DNA of 64,000 bases from Thermosediminibacter oceani DSM 16646 (GTDB taxonomy: Bacteria > Bacillota > Thermosediminibacteria > Thermosediminibacterales > Thermosediminibacteraceae). Every line of letters begins with the position of its first letter. The first letter of the stretch is position 1. Below, piece by piece: positions 33,950-54,916 of this stretch. A program made the position numbers and the translations under genes. The stretch spans positions 1,860,001-1,924,000 of the forward strand of contig NC_014377.1 in assembly GCF_000144645.1 (NCBI RefSeq), written 5' to 3'. The notes beneath the pieces are model-generated. The model had not been told where the DNA came from, made no database searches, and was given only the letters and a program-made list of their open reading frames with translations.

Positions 33950-33981
33950 AGCAAAAAACAAAAAGTCCCCGACTACGGGGA
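33950..33981 (-). terminator. Riboswitch-controlled terminator
   Basis: On the reverse strand CCCCG-TAGT-CGGGG is followed by ACTTTTTGTTTTTT. An upstream TTTTCCCC overlaps the first arm and can instead pair with GGGGAAA at the aptamer's 3' end, giving the antiterminator. Ligand binding keeps that GGGG in P1 and lets the terminator form, an OFF switch. Confidence 0.8.
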
Positions 33982-33992
33982 AAAGAAACTTT

Positions 33993-34066
33993 CCCCTATA
34001 GCCTGCGGTGGTTTACGGCCACCCGGTAGAGACTTCCGGGCCATATTCCCGGAATTATATAGGGGG
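33993..34066 (-). ncRNA. Purine riboswitch aptamer, guanine/hypoxanthine class
   Basis: Reverse strand: P1 arms CCCCTATA and TATAGGGG enclose the conserved core TATAAT, ATATGG, GTCTCTACC, CCGTAAA and GGCTATAG. P2 (GGGAATATGGCCC region) and P3 loops have the usual loop-loop pattern. The base equivalent to position 74 is C (in GGCTATA), which selects guanine or hypoxanthine rather than adenine. It lies directly ahead of the purine permease. Confidence 0.93.
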
Positions 34067-34094
34067 TAGACGTTAATATTTTTTTGATACCTGT

Positions 34095-43544: not shown

Positions 43545-44162
43545 TTATATATGCAATATCGGCGAAACTCTTTTGTAGATCAGCATTGTGATTATCGTCA
43601 GTATTAAGCCTTTTATGAGGTTGAAGGGCACGATGCTGTATACTACCAGCGTCTTGAGGTCTACCACTCTGGAGTTGACGCTGCTGCCCATACCTACAAT
43701 TGCTTCCAGGGGTATGTTGAAGACCTTCGCATACAGAGGTAAAAAAACGTAGTAATTGGCCAGGGCCATGCCCAGGGTCATTATGACCGTACCAAACACC
43801 ATTCCGAGTATAGCATTCGTCCGGGTCTTCCTCACCGAGTACAGCAGGGCCGCCGGCACCACAAAAAGTGTGCCCGTAAGCAGGTTGGCGATTTCTCCCA
43901 CAAAAGCGGTCTGGTTCTTGAAAATGGCGTGCAGGATATTCTTGAGCACCTCCACCGCCACCGCCGCCCAGGGCCCTACCCCGAAACCGGCGAGCAGTGC
44001 CGGCAGGTCGCTCAGGTCCATCTTCAAAAATTCGGGAAATAGCGGCAGCGGAAACTCAAGATAGGTCATTATCAAAAAGGCCATCACTCCGAGCACCGCA
44101 ACCTTAGCAATATTTCTGGTTTCGCGCCATGTCGCTGCTCCGGACTGGTTTAATGCATCCAT
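43545..44162 (-). CDS. ribU: Riboflavin ECF transporter S component RibU
   Basis: Membrane protein binding riboflavin/FMN, which works with a shared ECF energising module not in this window. 205 residues, six membrane segments. Typical RibU parts are VAVLGVMAFLIMTYLEFPLP, LKMDLSDLPALLAGFGVGPW and VEVLKNILHAIFKNQTAFVG, with NYYVFLPLYAKVFNIP further on. The ATG follows AGGAGGTG. An FMN riboswitch precedes it, which confirms the substrate. Confidence 0.95.
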   Translation of the reverse strand: MDALNQSGAATWRETRNIAKVAVLGVMAFLIMTYLEFPLPLFPEFLKMDLSDLPALLAGFGVGPWAAVAVEVLKNILHAIFKNQTAFVGEIANLLTGTLFVVPAALLYSVRKTRTNAILGMVFGTVIMTLGMALANYYVFLPLYAKVFNIPLEAIVGMGSSVNSRVVDLKTLVVYSIVPFNLIKGLILTIITMLIYKRVSPILHI

Positions 44163-44209: not shown

Positions 44210-44232
44210 CTTAATCTCACATCGCCACTATC

Positions 44233-44356
44233 GCCTTCTCCCATCCGGACTTTAACCGTCGGCCCCGGATTTTCACCGGGTCAACCCCTTTAAAGGGCTC
44301 GCGGGCTCGCCATAAAGGCTCACCGCCGGTCGGGAATTTCACCCTGCCCCGAAGGC
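44233..44356 (-). ncRNA. FMN riboswitch (RFN element)
   Basis: The reverse strand carries the classic RFN blocks: GGGGCAGGGTGAAATTCCCG, ACCGGCGGTGAGCC, GAGCCCGCGAGC, CCGGTGAAAATCCGGGGCCG and GTCCGGATGGGAGAAGG. P1 is closed by GCCTTC/GAAGGC. It lies ahead of ribU and, by family knowledge, turns expression off when FMN is abundant. Confidence 0.97.
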
Positions 44357-44389
44357 TTGATCCTTCGATCTTATTAAATTCTGTAGATT

Positions 44390-44501: not shown

Positions 44502-45398
44502 CTATAAGTAGTAAAGCTCGTGTCCACCAAACTGATTCCTTAGGACAGCTACAATTTTGCCTGAGAATGTATCATTTTCTAACGATCTGTATCTCATAAA
44601 TAAGGATAGTGCGATGATAGGTACAGGAATACCCTTTTCCAAAGCTGTTTCTACAGCCCATTGAGCTTCTCCAGTCGATTTCATAATACCCTTAATATTT
44701 GTTAACTTATTGTCCTTAGATAGGGCATCATACAATAACTCTATCAACCAGCTTCTGATAACAGAACCATGATTCCAAACTTTTGCCACTTTATCCAATT
44801 TAAAGTCGAATTCACTTTTATATAACATTTCAAATCCTTCTGCGATTGATTGCATCATACCATATTCTATGGCGTTATGTACCATCTTACAAAAATGTCC
44901 GCTTCCAGCTCTTCCAGTATATAAATAGCCATCTTCTACAGAGATATCTTTAAAAATTTTCTCGCAAGTTTCAAATACATCTTTATCTCCACCTACCATT
45001 GCACAAATTCCATTTAGCGCTCCACTTACGCCGCCACTTATTCCACAATCTAAAAAATTAATATTCAACCTCTTGAGCATTTCATACTTTGCAATCGAAT
45101 CTTTATAATGCGAGTTACCACCATCTATTATGATATCGTTTTCATCTAAATATTTAACTAATTCATTTATAACATTATTGGTGGGTTCTCCAGCTGGTAG
45201 TAATAAAAATATCTTTCTTGTTTTATTTAATTTACTAACTAAATCTTGAATACTTTCGGCAAAAATTGCTCCTTTTTTGTCTAAACCCTTTAATTTTTCT
45301 TTGTCGATGTCATATATAACTGTTGTATATCCTTTTGACAATAAGTTAAGTGTAAGATTATATCCCATTTTACCAATTCCTATTAATCCTATCTCCAT
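44502..45398 (-). CDS. 6-phosphogluconate dehydrogenase, short decarboxylating form (YqeC/GntZ type)
   Basis: Oxidises and decarboxylates 6-phosphogluconate to ribulose-5-phosphate. 298 residues, the short form lacking the long C-terminal tail. GLIGIGKMGYNLTLNLLSKG is the nucleotide motif. IIDGGNSHYKDSIAKYE and CGISGGVSGALNG hold substrate-binding residues, and the catalytic Lys is in GSGHFCKMVHNAIEYGMMQ. ATG after GGGGG. It is the last gene of the sigma-54-dependent PTS operon and points to a gluconate-6-phosphate-type intermediate as its end product. Cofactor preference cannot be read with certainty. Confidence 0.92.
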   Translation of the reverse strand: MEIGLIGIGKMGYNLTLNLLSKGYTTVIYDIDKEKLKGLDKKGAIFAESIQDLVSKLNKTRKIFLLLPAGEPTNNVINELVKYLDENDIIIDGGNSHYKDSIAKYEMLKRLNINFLDCGISGGVSGALNGICAMVGGDKDVFETCEKIFKDISVEDGYLYTGRAGSGHFCKMVHNAIEYGMMQSIAEGFEMLYKSEFDFKLDKVAKVWNHGSVIRSWLIELLYDALSKDNKLTNIKGIMKSTGEAQWAVETALEKGIPVPIIALSLFMRYRSLENDTFSGKIVAVLRNQFGGHELYYL

Positions 45399-45476
45399 TT
45401 TTCAACCCCCATACATTAAATTAAATGTGATAAATAAATTAAGCATCGCATTTCTAAAATTGTACCTGCCAATGAG

Positions 45477-46109
45477 TTAAACTTGATTTACTAAATTTAC
45501 AAACTCGATAGCCCTTTCGGTTATTTTATCAAACATACCTTTTGCTATAAGATCTCTATCTACTAATGCTCCTCCTAATGACACGCCTGTTGCACCCGCT
45601 AAAATAAAGTCTTTAATATTATTTTTATTAATCCCTCCTGTAACAAAAATAGGTATATGTTTAAGTGGTCCTAAAATTTCTTTAATATATTGAGGTCCGA
45701 ATACACCGGCAGGGAAAACTTTAATGAAATCCGCTCCTGCCTCATAACCTGTTAAAATTTCTGTGGGTGTTGTAGCCCCGGGAATTACAGGTATACCATA
45801 TCTATTGCACAATTTTATTACATCTAGCTTCATAACCGGTGTAAATATAAACTTCGCACCTGCTAAAATAGCAGCCCTTGCCGTTTCCGCATCCAATACT
45901 GTTCCAGCTCCAACAAAATATTTATTGCCTTTACTCAATTCTTTAATTACATCTAGAGCCCCAGGAGCCTCAACGGTTATTTCTAAAGCCTCAATACCTC
46001 CTTTTTTTAAGGCATCGGCTAAAGAAAATATTGTGTTTATATCACTATTTCTAATTACAGCTGTTATTTTAAGTTTTTTAAGTTTCTCAATAATTTCATG
46101 CTTTTTCAT
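45477..46109 (-). CDS. eda: 2-keto-3-deoxy-6-phosphogluconate (KDPG)-type aldolase
   Basis: Class I aldolase splitting KDPG or KDPGal to pyruvate and glyceraldehyde-3-phosphate. 210 residues from the ATG at 46109, preceded by GGAGAGG; the upstream TTG overlaps that site. ALEITVEAPGALDVIKEL holds the catalytic Glu, FVGAGTVLDAETARAAILAG the phosphate helix, and DFIKVFPAGVFGPQYIKEI the Schiff-base Lys, with PIFVTGGINKNN near the end. No phosphogluconate dehydratase or SelA-like DgaE dehydratase is encoded beside it, so its substrate source in this operon is unclear. It lies between the two dehydrogenase classes. Confidence 0.9.
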   Translation of the reverse strand: MKKHEIIEKLKKLKITAVIRNSDINTIFSLADALKKGGIEALEITVEAPGALDVIKELSKGNKYFVGAGTVLDAETARAAILAGAKFIFTPVMKLDVIKLCNRYGIPVIPGATTPTEILTGYEAGADFIKVFPAGVFGPQYIKEILGPLKHIPIFVTGGINKNNIKDFILAGATGVSLGGALVDRDLIAKGMFDKITERAIEFVNLVNQV

Positions 46110-46130
46110 TTGTATCCTCTCCAATAAGTT

Positions 46131-47093
46131 TTATTTCTTATTCTCATAAAGATATTTGGGCTCCATATCTTCCAATACACTAATAAGCCCTTCTACCGCC
46201 ATAATTGCCATCCTCTCCGAGGCTTCTATAGTAGCTGCCCCGCAGTGGGGTGATAAAATTAAATTATCCAATTCAAACAGTTTGCTATTTAATGGTGGCT
46301 CTTCTTCGAAAACATCTAATGCTGCTCCTGCTATTTTTTTGTTTTTCAAAGCGTTATATAGTACAGCCTCGTTTATAATTCCACCCCGAGAAGTATTAAT
46401 TATATATGCAGTGTTTTTCATGAGATTAAATTCCTCTTCGTCGACAAAATGATATGTTTCCTTATTTAGCGGTAAATGTAATGTTATAAAATCTGCTTCT
46501 TCAAATAATGTCTTTTTATCAACATATTTTACACCTAGTTTATTTGCAAAATCATAATCAGGGTATTTATCATAAGCTAATATTCTCATATCAAAACCTG
46601 TAGCTCTTTTGGCAACACTCCTACCAATATTTCCTGTACCGACGATCCCTAAAGTCTTACCATAAACTTCACAGCCAATTATCTTTTCCCATTTGTTGCT
46701 CCTCACTATATTATCTAACTTAATAACATTTCTGCTTAAACACAGCATCAGAGAAAAGGTTAAATCTGCTACAGATTCTGTGTTTGCACCAGGGGTATAA
46801 GTAATTTTTACTCCTAACTTGTCAGCTTCTTCAATATCTATATTATCTACCCCAACTCCATACTTCGTTATGACCTTCAGCTTTTTTGCATTTTTTAATA
46901 CATTACTCGTTATTTTGTCTAAACCTACAATAATGCCATCAACATCCCTTATTATTTTAATCAATTCAGATTCTTCATACGGTTTCCCTGAGTTATTTAT
47001 CAAAATTTCATAATCGTATTTTTTTAGCATTTCAAATGGAACATTACTTGTCTTGCCAAAAGATCTCGGTGTTATTAATACTTTCTTCCTCAT
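46131..47093 (-). CDS. D-isomer-specific 2-hydroxyacid dehydrogenase (SerA/GhrB-like)
   Basis: 320 residues. The NAD domain has LGIVGTGNIGRSVAKRATGF with an Asp at the end of strand 2 (ILAYDKYPD), suggesting NAD. Catalytic residues are visible as Arg in NTSRGGIINEAVLYNALKN, Glu in DVFEEEPPLNSKL, and His in LILSPHCGAATIEASERM. Family members reduce 2-keto acids such as hydroxypyruvate, 2-ketogluconate or phosphorylated forms. The regulatory ACT domain of SerA is absent, so a role in serine synthesis is unlikely. ATG after GGAGG. It follows the Ldh2-family gene by 24 bp, pairing two hydroxyacid dehydrogenases of different families. Confidence 0.9.
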   Translation of the reverse strand: MRKKVLITPRSFGKTSNVPFEMLKKYDYEILINNSGKPYEESELIKIIRDVDGIIVGLDKITSNVLKNAKKLKVITKYGVGVDNIDIEEADKLGVKITYTPGANTESVADLTFSLMLCLSRNVIKLDNIVRSNKWEKIIGCEVYGKTLGIVGTGNIGRSVAKRATGFDMRILAYDKYPDYDFANKLGVKYVDKKTLFEEADFITLHLPLNKETYHFVDEEEFNLMKNTAYIINTSRGGIINEAVLYNALKNKKIAGAALDVFEEEPPLNSKLFELDNLILSPHCGAATIEASERMAIMAVEGLISVLEDMEPKYLYENKK

Positions 47094-47117
47094 TTCGAGC
47101 CTCCATTTTTCTCTACT

Positions 47118-48167
47118 TTATTCTTCAAAGTCTATGTCATACTCCTTTGCTATCTTTATTACTTCCTCATACGTTTGGTCGTTTATAGGAACTCCATTTT
47201 TTAAACGTTCTTCTATTCTCCTTAGTTCTGGTTCACCGGGGAACATAATTTCATTATTATCATCTGATTTTGGAACAGATTTCATTTTTTCTATATAACG
47301 AGTAATTTTCTCATTATATTCATTGATTGGCATTAATTCGCTGATGTTTATCGCTATAAATACTATGCCTAAATCCTGACCACGATCTAATGCATTATGA
47401 AGCGATCCCACATCAGGGCCCCATGATGAACCTGTTAATAGACCGGCTATTATATCAATCAACATTGCAAGTCCAAATCCCTTATAGCCACCTAACGGAT
47501 ATAGTGTCCCTTTTAAAGCTTCTTTAGGGTCAGTTGTAGGTTTGCCATCTGCATTAAGAGCCCAATTATCCGGGATTTTATTACCTTTAGATAATTCAAC
47601 ATAAATTTTCCCTTTTGCCACAGTTGAAGTTGCCATATCTAAATTTATCACTTGGTCGTTATATGGAATCGTAATACAAAGAGGATTTGTCCCAACAAAT
47701 TTGACTTTCCCTCCCCACGGTGCCATCGATGCGGGGGCATTTGTCATACCTATGAAGATGCAGCCATTATCTGCTACTATATTTCCATAAAAACCTAATG
47801 AACCACAATGGTTTGTCCTCCCTATAAATGCTGCTGCAATTCCGCTTTTCTTTGCTTTATTTAATAAAGGTTCAACCGACTTATATGCCGCGATCTGTCC
47901 CATGGTATTATTGCCGTCAATCAATAATAGTGGTATATCTTTATCTAAATTTAAAACGTTTATATCGCCTGATAAATTATACAAACCTAATTTTGCCCTT
48001 TTTACATAAATAGGTAAATTGGATATACCGTGCGATTCTATCCCTCTTAAATCAGAATAAATGAGACTTTCCGCTATTATTTTCGCATCTTGTTCTTTAA
48101 AACCCGTCTTTTTAAAAATTTCTATTTCCAATTTTTTTAATTTATCTGCATCTATAATCTTCGGCAT
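47118..48167 (-). CDS. Ldh2/malate dehydrogenase-family oxidoreductase (YiaK/ComC/AllD-like)
   Basis: NAD(P)-dependent 2-hydroxyacid dehydrogenase of the unique non-Rossmann family. 349 residues from an ATG at 48167 chosen for its spacing to AGAGAGG; ATG at 48173 is an alternative. DLRGIESHGISNLPIYVKRA holds the catalytic Arg/His region, GRTNHCGSLGFYGNIVAD the active-site His, and KFVGTNPLCITIPYNDQVIN plus GGYKGFGLAMLIDIIAGLLT the cofactor region. Known members act on 2,3-diketogulonate, sulfolactate, ureidoglycolate or malate. Here it is co-encoded with a SerA-like enzyme, so it may work on the same 2-keto intermediate with opposite stereochemistry. Confidence 0.9.
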   Translation of the reverse strand: MPKIIDADKLKKLEIEIFKKTGFKEQDAKIIAESLIYSDLRGIESHGISNLPIYVKRAKLGLYNLSGDINVLNLDKDIPLLLIDGNNTMGQIAAYKSVEPLLNKAKKSGIAAAFIGRTNHCGSLGFYGNIVADNGCIFIGMTNAPASMAPWGGKVKFVGTNPLCITIPYNDQVINLDMATSTVAKGKIYVELSKGNKIPDNWALNADGKPTTDPKEALKGTLYPLGGYKGFGLAMLIDIIAGLLTGSSWGPDVGSLHNALDRGQDLGIVFIAINISELMPINEYNEKITRYIEKMKSVPKSDDNNEIMFPGEPELRRIEERLKNGVPINDQTYEEVIKIAKEYDIDFEE

Positions 48168-48197
48168 CGACATCAACCTCTCTATAAGTTTCACATC

Positions 48198-48701
48198 TCA
48201 TTTATTTATTCCAAATAGCTTTAAAGCAGCATCTAAGTTAACCCTTTTGCTTTCTGGCAATGTTTGAAAAAAGACCTCAACATTAAAATCATTTGCCAAT
48301 TCCCACAGCATCTCAGCTTCTTCCTTTTTTAAACTAACACTTGGAATCACAAACTTTTTCTCCGGACTTTTAGCAAGTCCTCCAATATTCAATTTTTTGA
48401 TAGGCAAACCTTTAACGACGGATTCTTTTACTGTAGCAATATCCTTGTAAAGTAAAATAACTTTGTAAATCCCAAAGTTATCTTTATTCCATAGCGAGAT
48501 TGCATCATCCACGCTTAATATTTTTGCCGGCAAATTAGACGCGGCAGCTGTCATTAGGTAAATACTTTTCATATATTCATCTTTTACAAGGTTATTGTCT
48601 ATCACAAAAACAGAATTACATCCAAATCCTTTGGCCCATTTTGTCATGACTTGTCCATGAATTAATCTATCATCCACTCTAGCAAAAAGTATTTCTCCCA
48701 T
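48198..48701 (-). CDS. PTS mannose-family EIIB component, second copy
   Basis: 167 residues. ILFARVDDRLIHGQVMTKW at residues 4-22 holds the phosphoryl His. NSVFVIDNNLVKDEYMKSIY and NIGGLAKSPEKKFVIPSVSL are further EIIB-Man signatures. ATG follows AAGGGAGG. It transfers phosphate from EIIA to the incoming sugar. It is paired with the second EIIA just upstream in the operon, so the cluster encodes two EIIA-EIIB sets for one EIIC-EIID. Confidence 0.93.
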   Translation of the reverse strand: MGEILFARVDDRLIHGQVMTKWAKGFGCNSVFVIDNNLVKDEYMKSIYLMTAAASNLPAKILSVDDAISLWNKDNFGIYKVILLYKDIATVKESVVKGLPIKKLNIGGLAKSPEKKFVIPSVSLKKEEAEMLWELANDFNVEVFFQTLPESKRVNLDAALKLFGINK

Positions 48702-48720
48702 CGCTGATCTTTCCTCCCTT

Positions 48721-49122
48721 TTATAATTTGGATCCTAGCTTTTTGATACCATCCACACTTGATTTATATACAATTTCAATCAATTCTTCCGTATCATATT
48801 TATCCCTAGATGATAATATTTCTATCAACATCGGTAAATTAACTCCTGTCAAAATTTTTACATCATAGTTTTTTGAGACTGACAAAGCACTATTTGATGT
48901 ACTGCCGCCAAATAAATCTACAAGAATAATCGTTTCTTTATTAGCTTTTTGATTCTCTACAACAATTTTTTCAACGTCCATTCGCAATGATTCAATATCA
49001 TCCCCTAAATTAAGTCCGAGTGTAACCACATCTTTTTGTTCTCCCATTATCAATTCAGCGCTCTTCAATAATTCTCTACTAAAATTCCCATGTGTAATAA
49101 TCAGTACAGCTTTTTCTTTCAT
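48721..49122 (-). CDS. PTS mannose-family EIIA component, second copy
   Basis: 133 residues from the ATG at 49122 after GAGGAGG; the long open frame upstream is non-coding and crosses a palindrome. AVLIITHGNFSRELLKSAEL holds the phospho-His at about residue 10, and ILVDLFGGSTSNSALSV the second conserved region, with VNLPMLIEIL near the end. It is separated from EIID by 131 bp that contain two inverted repeats, which suggests separate control of the downstream half of the operon. Confidence 0.92.
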   Translation of the reverse strand: MKEKAVLIITHGNFSRELLKSAELIMGEQKDVVTLGLNLGDDIESLRMDVEKIVVENQKANKETIILVDLFGGSTSNSALSVSKNYDVKILTGVNLPMLIEILSSRDKYDTEELIEIVYKSSVDGIKKLGSKL

Positions 49123-49164
49123 TGGTTCCTCCTCATCTCTTACATTTAAATATTTGAATCGATG

Positions 49165-49182
49165 TTTTGCCACTTGGCAAAA
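49165..49182. other. Perfect palindrome inside the PTS operon
   Basis: TTTTGCCA-CT-TGGCAAAA, eight-base arms, 42 bp before the second EIIA start. It looks like a protein-binding operator rather than a terminator because no T-run follows a stable loop. The binding protein is unknown. Confidence 0.45.
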
Positions 49183-49215
49183 TAAAATTAACCGAAAATA
49201 CTGCAGAACAAAGGT

Positions 49216-49243
49216 AAGAGGGAGAAGCAAAGCATCCCCTCTT
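49216..49243 (-). other. Stem-loop after EIID
   Basis: AAGAGGG (49216-49222) pairs with CCCTCTT (49237-49243), ten bases after the EIID stop, with inner partial pairing. It is possibly a leaky terminator or mRNA end stabiliser. Confidence 0.5.
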
Positions 49244-49253
49244 TTATAATTTC

Positions 49254-50114
49254 TCAGAGTATACCCAAAAATCCTAACACGCCAAAAATAACTACCAACC
49301 ACAGAAGTACCTGTATAATCTTCAATCCTTTTCTAGAAAAATACAGGTAAATTGACATTACTACAAACAAAGGTAACATACCGGGTAAGATCTTATCCAA
49401 TATTTCTTGAAGCACAAACTCTTTCCCAGAAATTGTCCACTTGAGCGGAGTGCTTACATTCACGTATGAAGCTGCGAGAATACCCATCATGAAGGTGCCC
49501 AAAACTGATAATGCTTCTATTATGCTTCGTATGCGGCTACCACTTACTATTTCCGCAACTGCAGCACGTCCTAAATTATAGCCCAATCTGGTAAAGTAAA
49601 ATCCATATAGATACGTTATTGTAACGAATGCAATCCAAGGAACTAAAGCGCCCAAAGGATTTCCTGCTTGTGCCCATGGAAGAGCAAGGGCTATTAAAAT
49701 ATACTGTACAGTTCCAGAATCTATAGCATCTCCTATACCCGCAAGGGGTCCCATCAAACCAACTTTTGTATTATTAATAGCTTCCGAAGTAATGGCTTCA
49801 TCTTTTTTTCCTTCAGCCAAAGCCTTAGCTCTTTCTTCTTCTAAAGAAATCGTAATTCCGAGTATAGTACCTCCACCCCAGTTACACTGTGTATTAAAAA
49901 ATAGGAGGTGTCTTCTAAAAGCTTCTCTCAGATCTTCTGACTTCTTATATAATTTCTTTAAAATAGGCATTATAGCCCACAGGAAAGACGGAGCTATCAT
50001 TGTTTCGTAATTATGGGGAATCTCATTAACAAACCACCAACGAAACCAAGCGCGGTGCAAATCCTTGTTAGTAATTCTTTCAGGATAATCTTTGCTCTTT
50101 ACATTTGCCTCCAT
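49254..50114 (-). CDS. PTS mannose-family EIID component
   Basis: 286 residues. The N-terminal cytoplasmic part (RITNKDLHRAWFRWWFVNEI) and TMIAPSFLWAIMPILKKLY are typical, as are FNTQCNWGGGTILGITISLE and KVGLMGPLAGIGDAIDSGTV. Membrane helices lie at about residues 145-190 and near the C-terminus (IIQVLLWLVVIFGVLGFLGI). ATG follows GGAGGG. With EIIC it forms the membrane channel. Confidence 0.95.
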   Translation of the reverse strand: MEANVKSKDYPERITNKDLHRAWFRWWFVNEIPHNYETMIAPSFLWAIMPILKKLYKKSEDLREAFRRHLLFFNTQCNWGGGTILGITISLEEERAKALAEGKKDEAITSEAINNTKVGLMGPLAGIGDAIDSGTVQYILIALALPWAQAGNPLGALVPWIAFVTITYLYGFYFTRLGYNLGRAAVAEIVSGSRIRSIIEALSVLGTFMMGILAASYVNVSTPLKWTISGKEFVLQEILDKILPGMLPLFVVMSIYLYFSRKGLKIIQVLLWLVVIFGVLGFLGIL

Positions 50115-50138
50115 TTTTCATCTACCCTCCTTATAGAT

Positions 50139-50918
50139 TTATTCTTCAATTTGTTGCGGATTGGTTAAGGAAACATACAAATAAGCTGTTATTGTCCCTA
50201 AGACTGCGTATGTCACAGTATTCACATTAAGAGGCTTCAGAATTATGGCCATGAAATAAGCAAGAAGGAAAAATACAATAAATTTTCTTTTGCCTATAAC
50301 AGTAAGTGTCAAAGCTATTCCTAAGGCAGGCAAACCTCCTCCTATGACCGACAACATATGGAATATCTTCCCCGCAGAAACTGTTTTAACTAATGCAGCT
50401 ATTAGAGGCGTTCCTTTATAAAGAGCAATGAAAATTGTCGGGAAAAAGATGACCAGACTAATGATTATAGGCAGAACGACAATTGAGAAAGTTATACCTC
50501 TTTCATTTAGCCGATCTGCATATTTGTTAGCCAAACGAACGACAAAGGTATTAACAAAAAACCTAAAACTATAAAGATAACTACCTAAAAGCCCTATAGG
50601 GACGGCTACAGCAATTGCTGCTTCTGGACTTAGGTTGGCCAAAACCGCAACCGGCACTGCTATAGCGGTCGCAACAGCTGGTTCGCTTGGCATTGTACCA
50701 CCCGGGGCTATTAAACCCATATAAATTAATTGAATTGCAGCAGTAACTGTCATAGCAGCAGGAACATTGTTTAAAACTATACCTACTACCAACCCTGTCA
50801 TCATAGGAGTAAAGCGGAGCATCAATGTAGAGTATCCAAGAGCACGCGCTTCTACTATCGCTATCCACAGAGCTATTAGAGCCGCTTGTCCAGCACTAAG
50901 AGTAACTTGCTGATCCAT
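50139..50918 (-). CDS. PTS mannose/sorbose-family EIIC component
   Basis: 259 residues with about eight hydrophobic segments. LIALWIAIVEARALGYSTLM, AMTVTAAIQLIYMGLIAPGG and PSEPAVATAIAVPVAVLANL are EIIC-Man/Sor signatures. The ATG follows AAGGGGGATG. It precedes EIID by 24 bp. Confidence 0.94.
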   Translation of the reverse strand: MDQQVTLSAGQAALIALWIAIVEARALGYSTLMLRFTPMMTGLVVGIVLNNVPAAMTVTAAIQLIYMGLIAPGGTMPSEPAVATAIAVPVAVLANLSPEAAIAVAVPIGLLGSYLYSFRFFVNTFVVRLANKYADRLNERGITFSIVVLPIIISLVIFFPTIFIALYKGTPLIAALVKTVSAGKIFHMLSVIGGGLPALGIALTLTVIGKRKFIVFFLLAYFMAIILKPLNVNTVTYAVLGTITAYLYVSLTNPQQIEE

Positions 50919-51026
50919 CTTTACATCCCCCTTAATTATTAAGTTTTAATTTTTATTTTATTTTCGATGCTTTTACTATCCTACTTGCATTCCCACCTCT
51001 TTCAGGTTGTAGTTGTATATTAATAT

Positions 51027-51503
51027 TTATAAATATTTGTCTATATTAAGCTTAGGGTCATCAGGTAAAATTTGAAAATAAACAGGTATACCTTTCGCTA
51101 AGATACTTTTCAATATCTCTGTTTCCTCGAGTGAGATAAAAATATTTTTTAGTAATAATCTCTTTCCCGGTCCCGCACTCATACCCCCTATATTTATTTC
51201 TTTCAATTTAACTTCCGCTTCTATTAGAGAATACATTGTAGAAGGGCTCTTTGCTAACAATATCACCCTTTCTTCACCAACAAATTTTTCCTTCAAGGCA
51301 TAAATAGCCTCTCTAATGCTAAAAATTTCTGTTTTTATACCTTGAGGAGCTGCCATTTTTATTACTTTGGCAAGAAACACATCATTGGAAACTTCGTCAT
51401 CGACAATAATAATCTTTTGAGCTTGAGTATAATTTACCCAGGAAGCTATAATTTGCCCGTGAATTAATCTATCATCAATCCTCGCCAGAACAATATCTCT
51501 CAT
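51027..51503 (-). CDS. PTS mannose-family EIIB component, first copy
   Basis: 158 residues. IVLARIDDRLIHGQIIASW at residues 4-22 has the phosphoryl His. IIIVDDEVSNDVFLAKVIKM and NIGGMSAGPGKRLLLKNIFI are conserved EIIB parts. It follows the first EIIA by 16 bp, with AAGGAAG before its ATG. It is related to, but clearly different from, the second copy at 48198. Confidence 0.94.
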   Translation of the reverse strand: MRDIVLARIDDRLIHGQIIASWVNYTQAQKIIIVDDEVSNDVFLAKVIKMAAPQGIKTEIFSIREAIYALKEKFVGEERVILLAKSPSTMYSLIEAEVKLKEINIGGMSAGPGKRLLLKNIFISLEETEILKSILAKGIPVYFQILPDDPKLNIDKYL

Positions 51504-51519
51504 AATATCAGCTTCCTTC

Positions 51520-51942
51520 TTAAGCTATTTCGTAGTCAGAAATAACTTTTCGTAAATCTTTTATTCCGCAGTGTCCCTTCTCAATACAATGCTCTTTTAG
51601 CATGCTTAAATTATAATTTTTTCGCATGGTCAATGCTTCTATAATCATAGGCATATTAACACCCGTTATATATTCGACTTTTAGATTATCCTCTAAATCT
51701 CTGCTGCCGATAATAGTAACATTTGATGGACTTCCACCATAAAAATCTATAAAAATTAAAACCCCATCACCTTCATCGAGCATTTTAATCGTTTCTAATA
51801 TATTGTTTTTAAATTCCTCAATATTGTCACCTGGAAAAAGCCCCAAGGCCATTGTTCGCTCTTGATTTCCTACAATAAGTTCTGCACTTTTTAAAAGCTC
51901 CTTGCCTAAATTTCCATGTGAAACTATTAAAATTCCTATCAT
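51520..51942 (-). CDS. PTS mannose-family EIIA component, first copy
   Basis: 140 residues from the ATG at 51942 after AAGGAGT; the longer frame from 51963 overlaps that site. GILIVSHGNLGKELLKSAEL holds the phospho-His near residue 9, VLIFIDFYGGSPSNVTIIGS the second motif. ITGVNMPMIIEALTMR is also typical. It is the first gene after the sigma-54 promoter. Confidence 0.93.
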   Translation of the reverse strand: MIGILIVSHGNLGKELLKSAELIVGNQERTMALGLFPGDNIEEFKNNILETIKMLDEGDGVLIFIDFYGGSPSNVTIIGSRDLEDNLKVEYITGVNMPMIIEALTMRKNYNLSMLKEHCIEKGHCGIKDLRKVISDYEIA

Positions 51943-52111: not shown

Positions 52112-54745
52112 TTAAATATATGTGTCAACCCTAATAGAAAGTGTGCCATAATATGTGCTAATCATTTCTACTATATACGCAATTTCTGTATCAGGTATTG
52201 AAATTCCAAAAACCTCTTCCACTATTTCAAAATGTTTTTTTATAAGCTCAAACTTAACACTTTGATCGTTTTTAATATGATCTAAATTCCTATAAGGCAA
52301 ACTTTCACCTCTTATAATCCTCTCTATCATACATGAACAATGAAACAAGAATTTTATCAATATTTCTTCGTCTATATCAGCACCAATATCCGATAATATA
52401 CACTTTAACACACTCTCTAGAATTTTATATGCCTTACTAGGATTTAAAAAGGTCAACGTTTTATCAAGTATATTAATCAAGCTTTTCTTTAAAAATGGCA
52501 TATCATTTTCAAATTCTATTTGCGTATATTCTATCACTTCATTTTTCTCTTTATTATTGTTAAAAGCAAAACTCAAGCTCATGATTTCTTTCGTTAGTTC
52601 GTCAAGAGTCATATCAGGCATTAAAGCTTTTCTTGTAGCTTCAATAACAATAGGCGTACTTACCATATCTATTGTCTTTGTCATAATCCCTGTTCTTTCT
52701 GAAATTATCTCAGAAAAAGTTGTAAGGGATCCCATATCCACCAATATAAGTACACCTTTCCCCTTATCTATTTGCTTAACAATGTCAATAGCTTTATTTA
52801 ATGTAACTTCAACTTTTTCATCAAGAGGCATGTCCAAAGCCTTTGCATGATCTACCCCAAGAAGAACATTTGCCACATTCGCCATTGTGCTTGCCGCATG
52901 ATCCCCATGCATTATGACTAATACACCTATGTTTTCATCCTTTCTACCTATTCTCAATGCATGCAAAAACATAGCGAGAAACGCCGTTTCGTCTTCGGGT
53001 ATTTTTACGTATAGCTTTTCTTCCAATTTAGCCTTTATTTCTTCTGCCGCAATATATTCAAACTGGTAATCTTTTGCTATATTTTCTCTATCCGGATGAG
53101 ATATCACTATGCCCTTTTTTAATCTTTCTAAAAGTGTCGCAATATGAAGCGTTATAGTATAAATTATCCGTTGATCAATGAGTCCTTTAAATTTATCTTT
53201 TACATTATTTAAAGCATATTCCACAGCTTCCAAGATATCTGGACTTACAAATTTTAATACCACATCCCGATTTATAGTGTTAGGCTCTGATTCACCGGAA
53301 AGCAAATACTTATTAAAATATTCTTTAATCTGATTTTCTATTTTTCTTCTGATTTCCTCAGAAGATAATCCCTCTTCATTATATTTCCTCCAGTTATTTA
53401 CTATTATCTCATAAAAATCATCTTTTGCCTCATAATTGCCTGCACTCCCAAGAAATTTTTTATTAAATTCATTCATTAGTTCAGTATTATCTCCCTCAAA
53501 TACAACATCCTTATAATTATTAACCTCTCTTATTATTTCCTCGTTTTTCTTGGCATCCCTTATCCTAAATAATCCTTCTTGAATATGACGGGAAAGTATT
53601 GAAAGTTTTACCTCCACTACACCATTCGGAGACATCATATACTCAAGAAAGGCTCCCGCACATATAAGCCGGATGTCATTCTTTAACTGGCCTATATTTC
53701 CCGGACAATCGTATAATAGTAAGGCTTTTATAACCTCCTTTGAAACTTTTATAGGCACATTAATACGGCGAGATTCCTCCCAAAAAAATTGATATATAAA
53801 CATCAGCCGTTCTTTCAACGTACGCATTTCCAAACTCGGAAGTTGTATTACAACGGGAACCCTTCTTAAAAAAGTATGCAATAAAACCGATTGCGGTTCC
53901 TCGGTTGTAGCCGCAATTATCCTTACCTTTGCTTTTCTTGTATTTTCCGACTCACCCATTCTCCGATAAATCCCTTTATCCATTAATGTGAAAAGCATTT
54001 CCTGACCTTCTGGAGGTAAACGATGTACCTCGTCTAAGAATAAAATTCCCCCATTAGCTTCATCAACAAGACCTCTTTTTTCTTTATCTGCACCAGTAAA
54101 AGCTCCTTTTACATAGCCAAACAATTGAGACAGTAATAATTGAGGGTTTTCGGCATAATCCGCGCAATTGAAAATAATAAATGGAGATTTCTCTGGCAGC
54201 ACTCCTATCTGAATCGCATACTTATACATCGCTTCCGCAAAAGTGGTTTTACCAACACCTGTTGGTCCAACAATTAATGTATGAAGGCCATCTGGAGGAT
54301 ATAGTATTGCAGCTTTAGCTCTTGTTATTTGGTCTTTTAAGCTATCTTGAGCCCCTATGAGGTTGTCAAGACTATTTTCTACATAATTTGTTGTTACATT
54401 ATTTTCGATTTCTCTCTTTATACCTTTTAATACACCCTTTTCTTTAAGCATTAAAATAAACTTTTTTTGACTCTCTATAACTGTATTAGCAAAATTTATA
54501 CCCCACTTTTCTTGTAAGTAGATTCTATCTAAATACAAAACCGGTTTACCTTTAATTTTTAGAACTTTTCCTTCTTTTACTAAACTATTAAGTTCTCTGC
54601 TTGCATTAGACCGATCAATACCAATTAAATTACCTATGTAACTAGCTTCAAATCCTAATCTGCTATTGTCAACACTCAAGGATAGTGAGGCGGTAAGATC
54701 TCTTAATTTTTGATAAATTCTGTCTTTCCTTTTTAAACTTAACAT
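52112..54745 (-). CDS. LevR/DgaR-type sigma-54-dependent activator with PTS regulation domains
   Basis: 877 residues from the ATG at 54745 after GGGGGGAGG. An N-terminal helix-turn-helix (LIGIDRSNASRELNSLVKEG near 40-59) is followed by an AAA+ domain with Walker A IVGPTGVGKTTF (about 158-169), the sigma-54 contact loop GAFTGA (214-219) and Walker B ILFLDE (about 234-239). A PRD lies after about 420, then an EIIA-Man-like domain (GVLVIMHGDHAAS, VLILVDMGSLTTF) and a second C-terminal PRD (FLFHCSCMIERIIRGE). It activates the adjacent PTS operon, with activity set by PTS phosphorylation of PRDs. It lies upstream in the same direction, just before its UAS. Confidence 0.95.
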   Translation of the reverse strand: MLSLKRKDRIYQKLRDLTASLSLSVDNSRLGFEASYIGNLIGIDRSNASRELNSLVKEGKVLKIKGKPVLYLDRIYLQEKWGINFANTVIESQKKFILMLKEKGVLKGIKREIENNVTTNYVENSLDNLIGAQDSLKDQITRAKAAILYPPDGLHTLIVGPTGVGKTTFAEAMYKYAIQIGVLPEKSPFIIFNCADYAENPQLLLSQLFGYVKGAFTGADKEKRGLVDEANGGILFLDEVHRLPPEGQEMLFTLMDKGIYRRMGESENTRKAKVRIIAATTEEPQSVLLHTFLRRVPVVIQLPSLEMRTLKERLMFIYQFFWEESRRINVPIKVSKEVIKALLLYDCPGNIGQLKNDIRLICAGAFLEYMMSPNGVVEVKLSILSRHIQEGLFRIRDAKKNEEIIREVNNYKDVVFEGDNTELMNEFNKKFLGSAGNYEAKDDFYEIIVNNWRKYNEEGLSSEEIRRKIENQIKEYFNKYLLSGESEPNTINRDVVLKFVSPDILEAVEYALNNVKDKFKGLIDQRIIYTITLHIATLLERLKKGIVISHPDRENIAKDYQFEYIAAEEIKAKLEEKLYVKIPEDETAFLAMFLHALRIGRKDENIGVLVIMHGDHAASTMANVANVLLGVDHAKALDMPLDEKVEVTLNKAIDIVKQIDKGKGVLILVDMGSLTTFSEIISERTGIMTKTIDMVSTPIVIEATRKALMPDMTLDELTKEIMSLSFAFNNNKEKNEVIEYTQIEFENDMPFLKKSLINILDKTLTFLNPSKAYKILESVLKCILSDIGADIDEEILIKFLFHCSCMIERIIRGESLPYRNLDHIKNDQSVKFELIKKHFEIVEEVFGISIPDTEIAYIVEMISTYYGTLSIRVDTYI

Positions 54746-54916
54746 ACTTTTCCTCCCCCCTTTCATCAGTCGCTTTTTTTGGAGACCTCGTTTTACAATT
54801 TAGCTCAATTTAATATTACATTAATTTCGAATTCTTTATTGAAAAGAGATCAATTTGTAGGCTCAGACCCCCGAACATAGTTTAAACGATATCAAATACT
54901 TCATTAAATCTAATTA

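Follow-up and report, generated by a model that had tools for sequence, protein, structure and literature searches.

A mannose-family phosphotransferase operon of Thermosediminibacter oceani, read as a predicted variant of the 2-ketogluconate pathway with a possible accessory module for C2 epimers and 3-deoxy acids

The KguK/KguD route of Pseudomonas and Cupriavidus takes 2-ketogluconate to 2-keto-6-phosphogluconate and, by the action of a reductase, to 6-phosphogluconate. In pseudomonads it gives the same intermediates (PMC11837542) that we propose here for a ten-gene operon of Thermosediminibacter oceani DSM 16646, a thermophilic bacterium from the deep sea. The operon lies in a stretch of 64,000 bases, called the window below (contig NC_014377.1, listed as G000:C1:1860001-1924000, within a 2,280,035-base genome), and joins a mannose-family phosphotransferase system (PTS) to an Ldh2-family and a SerA-type 2-hydroxyacid dehydrogenase, an Eda aldolase, and a short 6-phosphogluconate dehydrogenase (6PGDH). 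Unlike the Kgu route, it has PTS phosphorylation in place of a permease and KguK, an exit through 6PGDH, the additional Ldh2 and Eda proteins, and sigma-54/LevR control, and NADH rather than NADPH is the predicted reductant.

Other described systems share single features with the operon. The D-glucosaminate system, DgaABCD-EF, likewise combines a mannose-family PTS with a LevR-type sigma-54 activator, but the T. oceani operon lacks DgaE and DgaF and has two dehydrogenases and 6PGDH instead. In ComC/SlcC/SuyAB sulfolactate degradation, an Ldh2-type and a SerA-type dehydrogenase act as a two-enzyme racemase; here, however, the pair stands with a sugar-acid PTS and 6PGDH, there is no sulfo-lyase, and Ldh2 scores under the sulfolactate dehydrogenase cut-off. 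Epimerization of 6-phosphomannonate to 6-phosphogluconate, the same net reaction that Ldh2 and SerA would perform ahead of 6PGDH, was measured as an activity of Lactobacillus suebicus to which no gene was assigned; as its candidate, that paper names a GntE homologue rather than two dehydrogenases (PMC6978723). GntE, a LarA-family gluconate 2-epimerase, inverts C2 between mannonate and gluconate but is a nickel-pincer enzyme, and the acids that it was found to epimerize were unphosphorylated (PMC7583248). An Enterococcus faecium plasmid (NZ_CP072711) encodes a PTS with a IID protein 55% identical to that of T. oceani and related IIC and IIB proteins, but in company with UxuA and a HAD phosphatase rather than SerA, Ldh2, Eda, and 6PGDH. 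The enzyme families are known and their combination is undescribed in the openly licensed papers searched, which is not proof of absence. An earlier reading of the locus from its sequence only, made before any database search, knew of no described operon with this set; that claim holds for the papers searched, but the chemistry is partly known (PMC11837542, PMC6978723, PMC7583248).

Comparison of gene content across genomes makes it probable that the core of the operon is a PTS variant of the 2-ketogluconate route, running from 2-keto-6-phosphogluconate through 6-phosphogluconate to ribulose-5-phosphate; this estimate covers the PTS, SerA, and 6PGDH steps only. Under LevR and sigma-54 control, the PTS would import D-gluconate-type hexonates and hexulosonates as 6-phosphates, converting 2-ketogluconate to 2-keto-6-phosphogluconate and probably also gluconate to 6-phosphogluconate. 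With NADH as the reductant, SerA would convert the 2-keto form to 6-phosphogluconate, from which the short 6PGDH would release ribulose-5-phosphate by decarboxylation, making the use of 2-ketogluconate redox-neutral. The locus as a whole is best classed as 2-ketogluconate catabolism in a PTS version, to which an accessory module for C2 epimers or 3-deoxy acids is attached.

The strongest evidence for a gluconate-type substrate comes from relatives of the PTS, all of whose partners act on gluconate-type C6 acids. This comparison supports the sequence-only reading in its proposal that the PTS imports such an acid and that SerA and 6PGDH act downstream. When the relatives were ranked by EIID identity, three near-identical operons stood at 88%. 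At 72 to 73%, locus L125 has SerA, Eda, short 6PGDH, and ribose-5-phosphate isomerase B, followed by UxaA-type pieces; L126 has SerA, Eda, and a long 6PGDH, and its partner contig, L127, ends shortly past Eda; L099 to L101 have SerA alone beside levR, with a separate sigma-54 site before SerA in L099 and L100. Two loci at 58 to 61%, L128 and L129, have a long 6PGDH only, and a third, L103, has SerA and short 6PGDH with an RpiR regulator. A DgaE-family lyase accompanies the PTS in L102 (58%), and the E. faecium plasmid locus with mannonate dehydratase and the HAD phosphatase (L130, NZ_CP072711.1) stands at 55%. The sequence-only reading would have yielded to a dehydratase that was always present in the related operons and marked a glucosaminate pathway; a DgaE-type lyase was found in L102 only, and several relatives carry none. 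Outside the PTS operons, L104 combines a SerA of the same clade with a gluconokinase-like kinase, a KduD/IdnO-type reductase, and short 6PGDH, and in other loci short 6PGDH adjoins gluconokinase and GntP.

Among the relatives, EIIC and EIID are fused in one open frame of about 560 amino acids in L102, L128, and L129. L126 and L133 (genome G412) are adjacent sugar-acid operons with a Gat-type PTS, SerA paralogues, a UxaA-type dehydratase, galactonate dehydratase, a second SerA-Eda pair, and an MFS-like transporter. A scan of the genome contigs returned a single distant locus. The T. oceani genome also holds a second mannose-family PTS locus (L138, G000:C1:290001-305000) with levR and a Zn-dehydrogenase, apparently disrupted by transposase-like open reading frames.

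All ten genes recognized by the sequence-only reading are present and co-directional on the minus strand, separated by gaps of 3 to 131 nucleotides, and profile searches confirmed their families, including EIIA-man, PTSIIB_sorb, EII-Sor, EIID-AGA, Ldh_2, 2-Hacid_dh, and KDPG/KHG aldolase. The levR gene lies 169 nucleotides from the operon, just beyond the span first assigned to it (44502-51942). The features, in window coordinates, are as follows.

52112..54766, minus strand: levR-like sigma-54 activator; AAA+ domain with GAFTGA, an EIIA-man domain, and two PRD stretches; 84 to 85% identity in L122 to L124
51988..52002, minus strand: sigma-54-type -24/-12 promoter site TGGCATgaaagTTGC, between levR and IIA1, upstream of IIA1
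51520..51942, minus strand: PTS EIIA-1 (mannose family); His active-site motif SHGNLG, evident from the sequence
51027..51503, minus strand: PTS EIIB-1 (sorbose/mannose family); motif DDRLIHGQ
50139..50918, minus strand: PTS EIIC (EII-Sor); 91% identity in genomes G409, G410, and G418 and 76 to 79% in G085, G120, G365, G412, G416, and G421
49254..50114, minus strand: PTS EIID (EIID-AGA); profile match
48721..49122, minus strand: PTS EIIA-2; profile match
48198..48701, minus strand: PTS EIIB-2; motif DDRLIHGQ
47118..48194, minus strand: Ldh2-family (L-type) 2-hydroxyacid dehydrogenase; scores under the cut-offs of all named NCBIfam equivalogs
46131..47093, minus strand: SerA/GhrB-type (D-type) 2-hydroxyacid dehydrogenase; profile match; proposed 2-keto-6-phosphogluconate reductase
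45477..46109, minus strand: Eda, the aldolase for 2-keto-3-deoxy-6-phosphogluconate (KDPG) and 2-keto-4-hydroxyglutarate (KHG); the only copy found in the genome
44502..45398, minus strand: short NAD-type 6PGDH; the only 6PGDH found in the genome; exceeds the TIGR00872 and PRK09599 cut-offs

Three starts were refined from the sequence, to ATG at 51942 for IIA1, at 49122 for IIA2, and at 46109 for Eda, whose relatives begin MKKQEII. The PTS proteins match the four mannose-family Pfam domains (PF03610, PF03830, PF03609, and PF03613), and the phosphorylatable His motifs can be read in both IIA and both IIB proteins, so two complete IIA/IIB pairs serve one IIC-IID. The GAFTGA-bearing AAA+, PRD, and EIIA domains of the activator, with a -24/-12 site before the PTS genes, identify a LevR-type sigma-54 system. 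Matches resembling TGGCATgaaagTTGC were not above chance in number across the window; such a site also precedes the PTS genes in L122 to L129, L099, L100, L102, L111, and L112, nearly all of the LevR-linked relatives scanned.

In a maximum-likelihood tree, the operon SerA, the PTS-linked SerA proteins, and two neighbors of short 6PGDH (from L103 and L104) formed one clade (support, 97/94), and SerA proteins from operons that combine Ldh2 with TRAP- or tripartite-like transporters fell outside it. A probable 2-ketogluconate reductase with a PDB entry is among the relatives of SerA, and SerA is close to glyoxylate/hydroxypyruvate reductases; a scan of its specificity positions gave no clean phosphate-binding signature. 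Family and clade both fit the D-2-hydroxyacid dehydrogenase-family reductase of a Kgu-type route, the PTS standing in place of KguK. On the basis of clade and context, including the sigma-54 sites before SerA in L099 and L100, and of the KguK/KguD chemistry (PMC11837542), the best assignment of SerA would be as a 2-keto-6-phosphogluconate reductase. An Asp follows the second Rossmann strand in SerA and in short 6PGDH, which suggests that both may use NAD(H) and that the route from 2-ketogluconate may be redox-neutral. A SerA match on a Niallia plasmid was ruled out as a PTS operon, as by eye it sits in an operon of the DUF1537-kinase/PdxA2 type.

The whole block is a recent horizontal acquisition of one functional unit. 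GC content drops from about 48% to 34% across levR to gnd, and third-position GC content (GC3) is 0.21 to 0.32 in the block against 0.51 to 0.65 in flanking genes, a small PqqD-like open reading frame at 0.43 being the exception; these shifts indicate acquisition as one unit. Ldh2, EIID, and short 6PGDH had no match in the sampled congener at the cut-offs used. In three genomes from a distant family, genes from levR to eda recur in identical order, with 82 to 95% protein identity (one of these three closest operons, L122, lies on a contig that starts within levR), and this recurrence, together with the GC and GC3 signature, argues that the gene set is not due to chance. Short 6PGDH does not adjoin eda in the three operons. 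In two of them a long 6PGDH lies just upstream of levR, with remnants resembling an FGGY kinase, and the third contig does not extend far enough for a judgment. No direct repeats of at least 12 bases, sought as insertion marks, flank the block, and a single 12-base inverted match at its flanks is T-rich and unconvincing. The island is bordered by an FMN riboswitch at 44229-44360 (minus strand), which immediately precedes the gene of a RibU-like transporter (43545-44162), and a purine riboswitch (Rfam RF00167) lies at 33979-34082 of the window (minus strand).

The rest of the genome constrains what could feed Eda and 6PGDH. With positive controls in place, neither glucose-6-phosphate dehydrogenase nor the mannonate dehydratase UxuA was found in the genome, and there was no ILVD_EDD match that would reveal Edd or IlvD, with 14 of 14 controls positive. 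The only full-length PfkB kinase scores far under the cut-off for kinases of 2-keto-3-deoxygluconate (KDG), leaving no clear KDG kinase. The 6-phosphogluconate used by the only 6PGDH does not, therefore, come from the usual oxidative pentose phosphate pathway. Likewise, KDPG cannot arise through the usual dehydratases and must have another source, which sharpens the earlier proposal that Eda drains a 2-keto-3-deoxy branch. The classical Entner-Doudoroff pathway, with Edd feeding Eda, was ruled out by the lack of Edd, and the hexuronate (Uxu) route, for lack of UxuA, is not supported. A UxaA/SuyB-like dehydratase is encoded elsewhere, in an operon with GntP-, KdgT-, DUF1537-kinase-, and PdxA2-like genes (by eye), and occurs in the congener as well. 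An arginine position of Eda that seemed odd against the E. coli enzyme proved not to be diagnostic, as the closest solved KDPG aldolases, 1vlw and 1wa3, also have a non-arginine there.

As a family rule, the substrates of Ldh2 enzymes are L-type 2-hydroxy acids and those of SerA enzymes are D-type ones; among hexonates, these correspond to the C2 configurations of mannonate and gluconate. Ldh2, with the opposite C2 handedness to SerA, would oxidize 6-phosphomannonate, the C2 epimer, to the same 2-keto intermediate, and the two would together form a two-enzyme epimerase. Given the handedness rule and the parallel with the ComC/SlcC racemase, such a conversion of 6-phosphomannonate to 6-phosphogluconate is chemically coherent. 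An aldolase recurs without a dehydratase, which points to a 3-deoxy input: Eda may be an exit for 3-deoxy acids to pyruvate and glyceraldehyde-3-phosphate, fed by KDG that the PTS imports as KDPG or by 3-deoxy-hexonate-6-phosphates oxidized at C2 by SerA or Ldh2. Overall, the operon would be a C2-redox hub with two exits, 6PGDH and Eda. We advance this hub on PTS-made 6-phosphohexonates, whether as a two-dehydrogenase 6-phosphomannonate 2-epimerase feeding 6PGDH, as 3-deoxyhexonate-6-phosphate oxidation to KDPG feeding Eda, or as both, tentatively, as plausible but short of probable. Independent support for a SerA-Ldh2 pair downstream of a PTS comes from L036 (G387:C51), in which genes for SerA, Ldh2, an aldolase of the DHDPS family, and a cyclase-family protein come after an ascorbate-type PTS (IIA, IIB, and IIC); its SerA falls outside the supported clade, so L036 looks like a separate assembly.

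An alternative account, which we think unlikely, sees a plain 2-ketogluconate/gluconate PTS operon that performs no C2 epimerization, Ldh2 and Eda being passengers or having other acids as substrates. The core genes do occur in sets that lack Ldh2 or Eda, and Ldh2 proteins elsewhere adjoin apparent TRAP or tripartite transporters, but in this operon both genes are tightly packed and have been retained in four genomes, and the unrelated PTS of L036 also comes with SerA, Ldh2, and an aldolase. The lack of Edd and UxuA would be explained if the operon served 3-deoxy-hexonates (metasaccharinate), the PTS importing either C2 form, SerA and Ldh2 each oxidizing one epimer to KDPG, and Eda cleaving it, so that two dehydrogenases of opposite handedness stand beside an aldolase and a dehydratase is unneeded. 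The same trio in L036, there with a DHDPS-family aldolase, fits as well. Taken alone, however, this explanation does not account for the repeated association with 6PGDH or for the ribose-5-phosphate isomerase of L125, and a UxaA-type dehydratase does occur elsewhere in the genome; we give it a small chance.

Cleavage of 2-keto-6-phosphogluconate by Eda to hydroxypyruvate and glyceraldehyde-3-phosphate, with reduction of hydroxypyruvate to glycerate by SerA or Ldh2, would suit the nearness of SerA to glyoxylate/hydroxypyruvate reductases and the recurring SerA-Eda adjacency. But no glycerate kinase was recognized in any of these operons, L103 and L104 have SerA and 6PGDH without Eda, and Eda enzymes normally require a 3-deoxy substrate, all of which makes this route highly improbable. 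Glucosaminate and sulfolactate readings were, like the classical Entner-Doudoroff pathway, rejected on gene content, and we see hardly any chance for either. A Dga-type operon would share the mannose-family PTS and LevR-type activator, and the related PTS of L102 has a DgaE-family lyase, but neither DgaE nor DgaF is encoded in the operon or its close relatives, as the sequence-only reading had noted of the Dga dehydratase. For racemization of sulfolactate or a malate-type acid, the L-sulfolactate dehydrogenase model is the closest named family to Ldh2, and racemization by two dehydrogenases is known from SlcC/ComC; yet Ldh2 scores 288 bits against a cut-off of 500, the operon has no SuyAB, the genome's SuyB/UxaA-like gene sits in the other operon described above, and a PTS and 6PGDH would be senseless for a C3 sulfonate.

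Several points weigh against our own account, that of a PTS-fed 2-ketogluconate route with a C2-redox hub. Specificity shifts within this PTS family, as the lyase of L102 and the dehydratase and phosphatase of L130 indicate, and SerA-type enzymes are notoriously hard to assign from sequence. Most PTS relatives lack Ldh2, which appears as an accessory gene of a single subtype, that of T. oceani and the three near-identical operons. Among 398 genomes of the phylum, no relative of Ldh2 exceeded 42% identity apart from those operons (86 to 87% in L122 to L124), and its alignment gave no substrate clue; with no named equivalog either, its substrate cannot be read from its sequence. The NADH preferences rest on one acidic residue per Rossmann fold, and the substrate assignment and 3-deoxy-acid chemistry remain predictions.

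With its relatives, the locus shows that sugar-acid PTS operons form a mobile, modular family, a single lineage of permease being joined to varying downstream enzymes. For 6-phosphomannonate 2-epimerase, a measured activity still without a gene, Ldh2 and SerA offer concrete candidates. If the C2-redox hub exists, by either branch, it would be an undescribed catabolic step with its genes already in hand.

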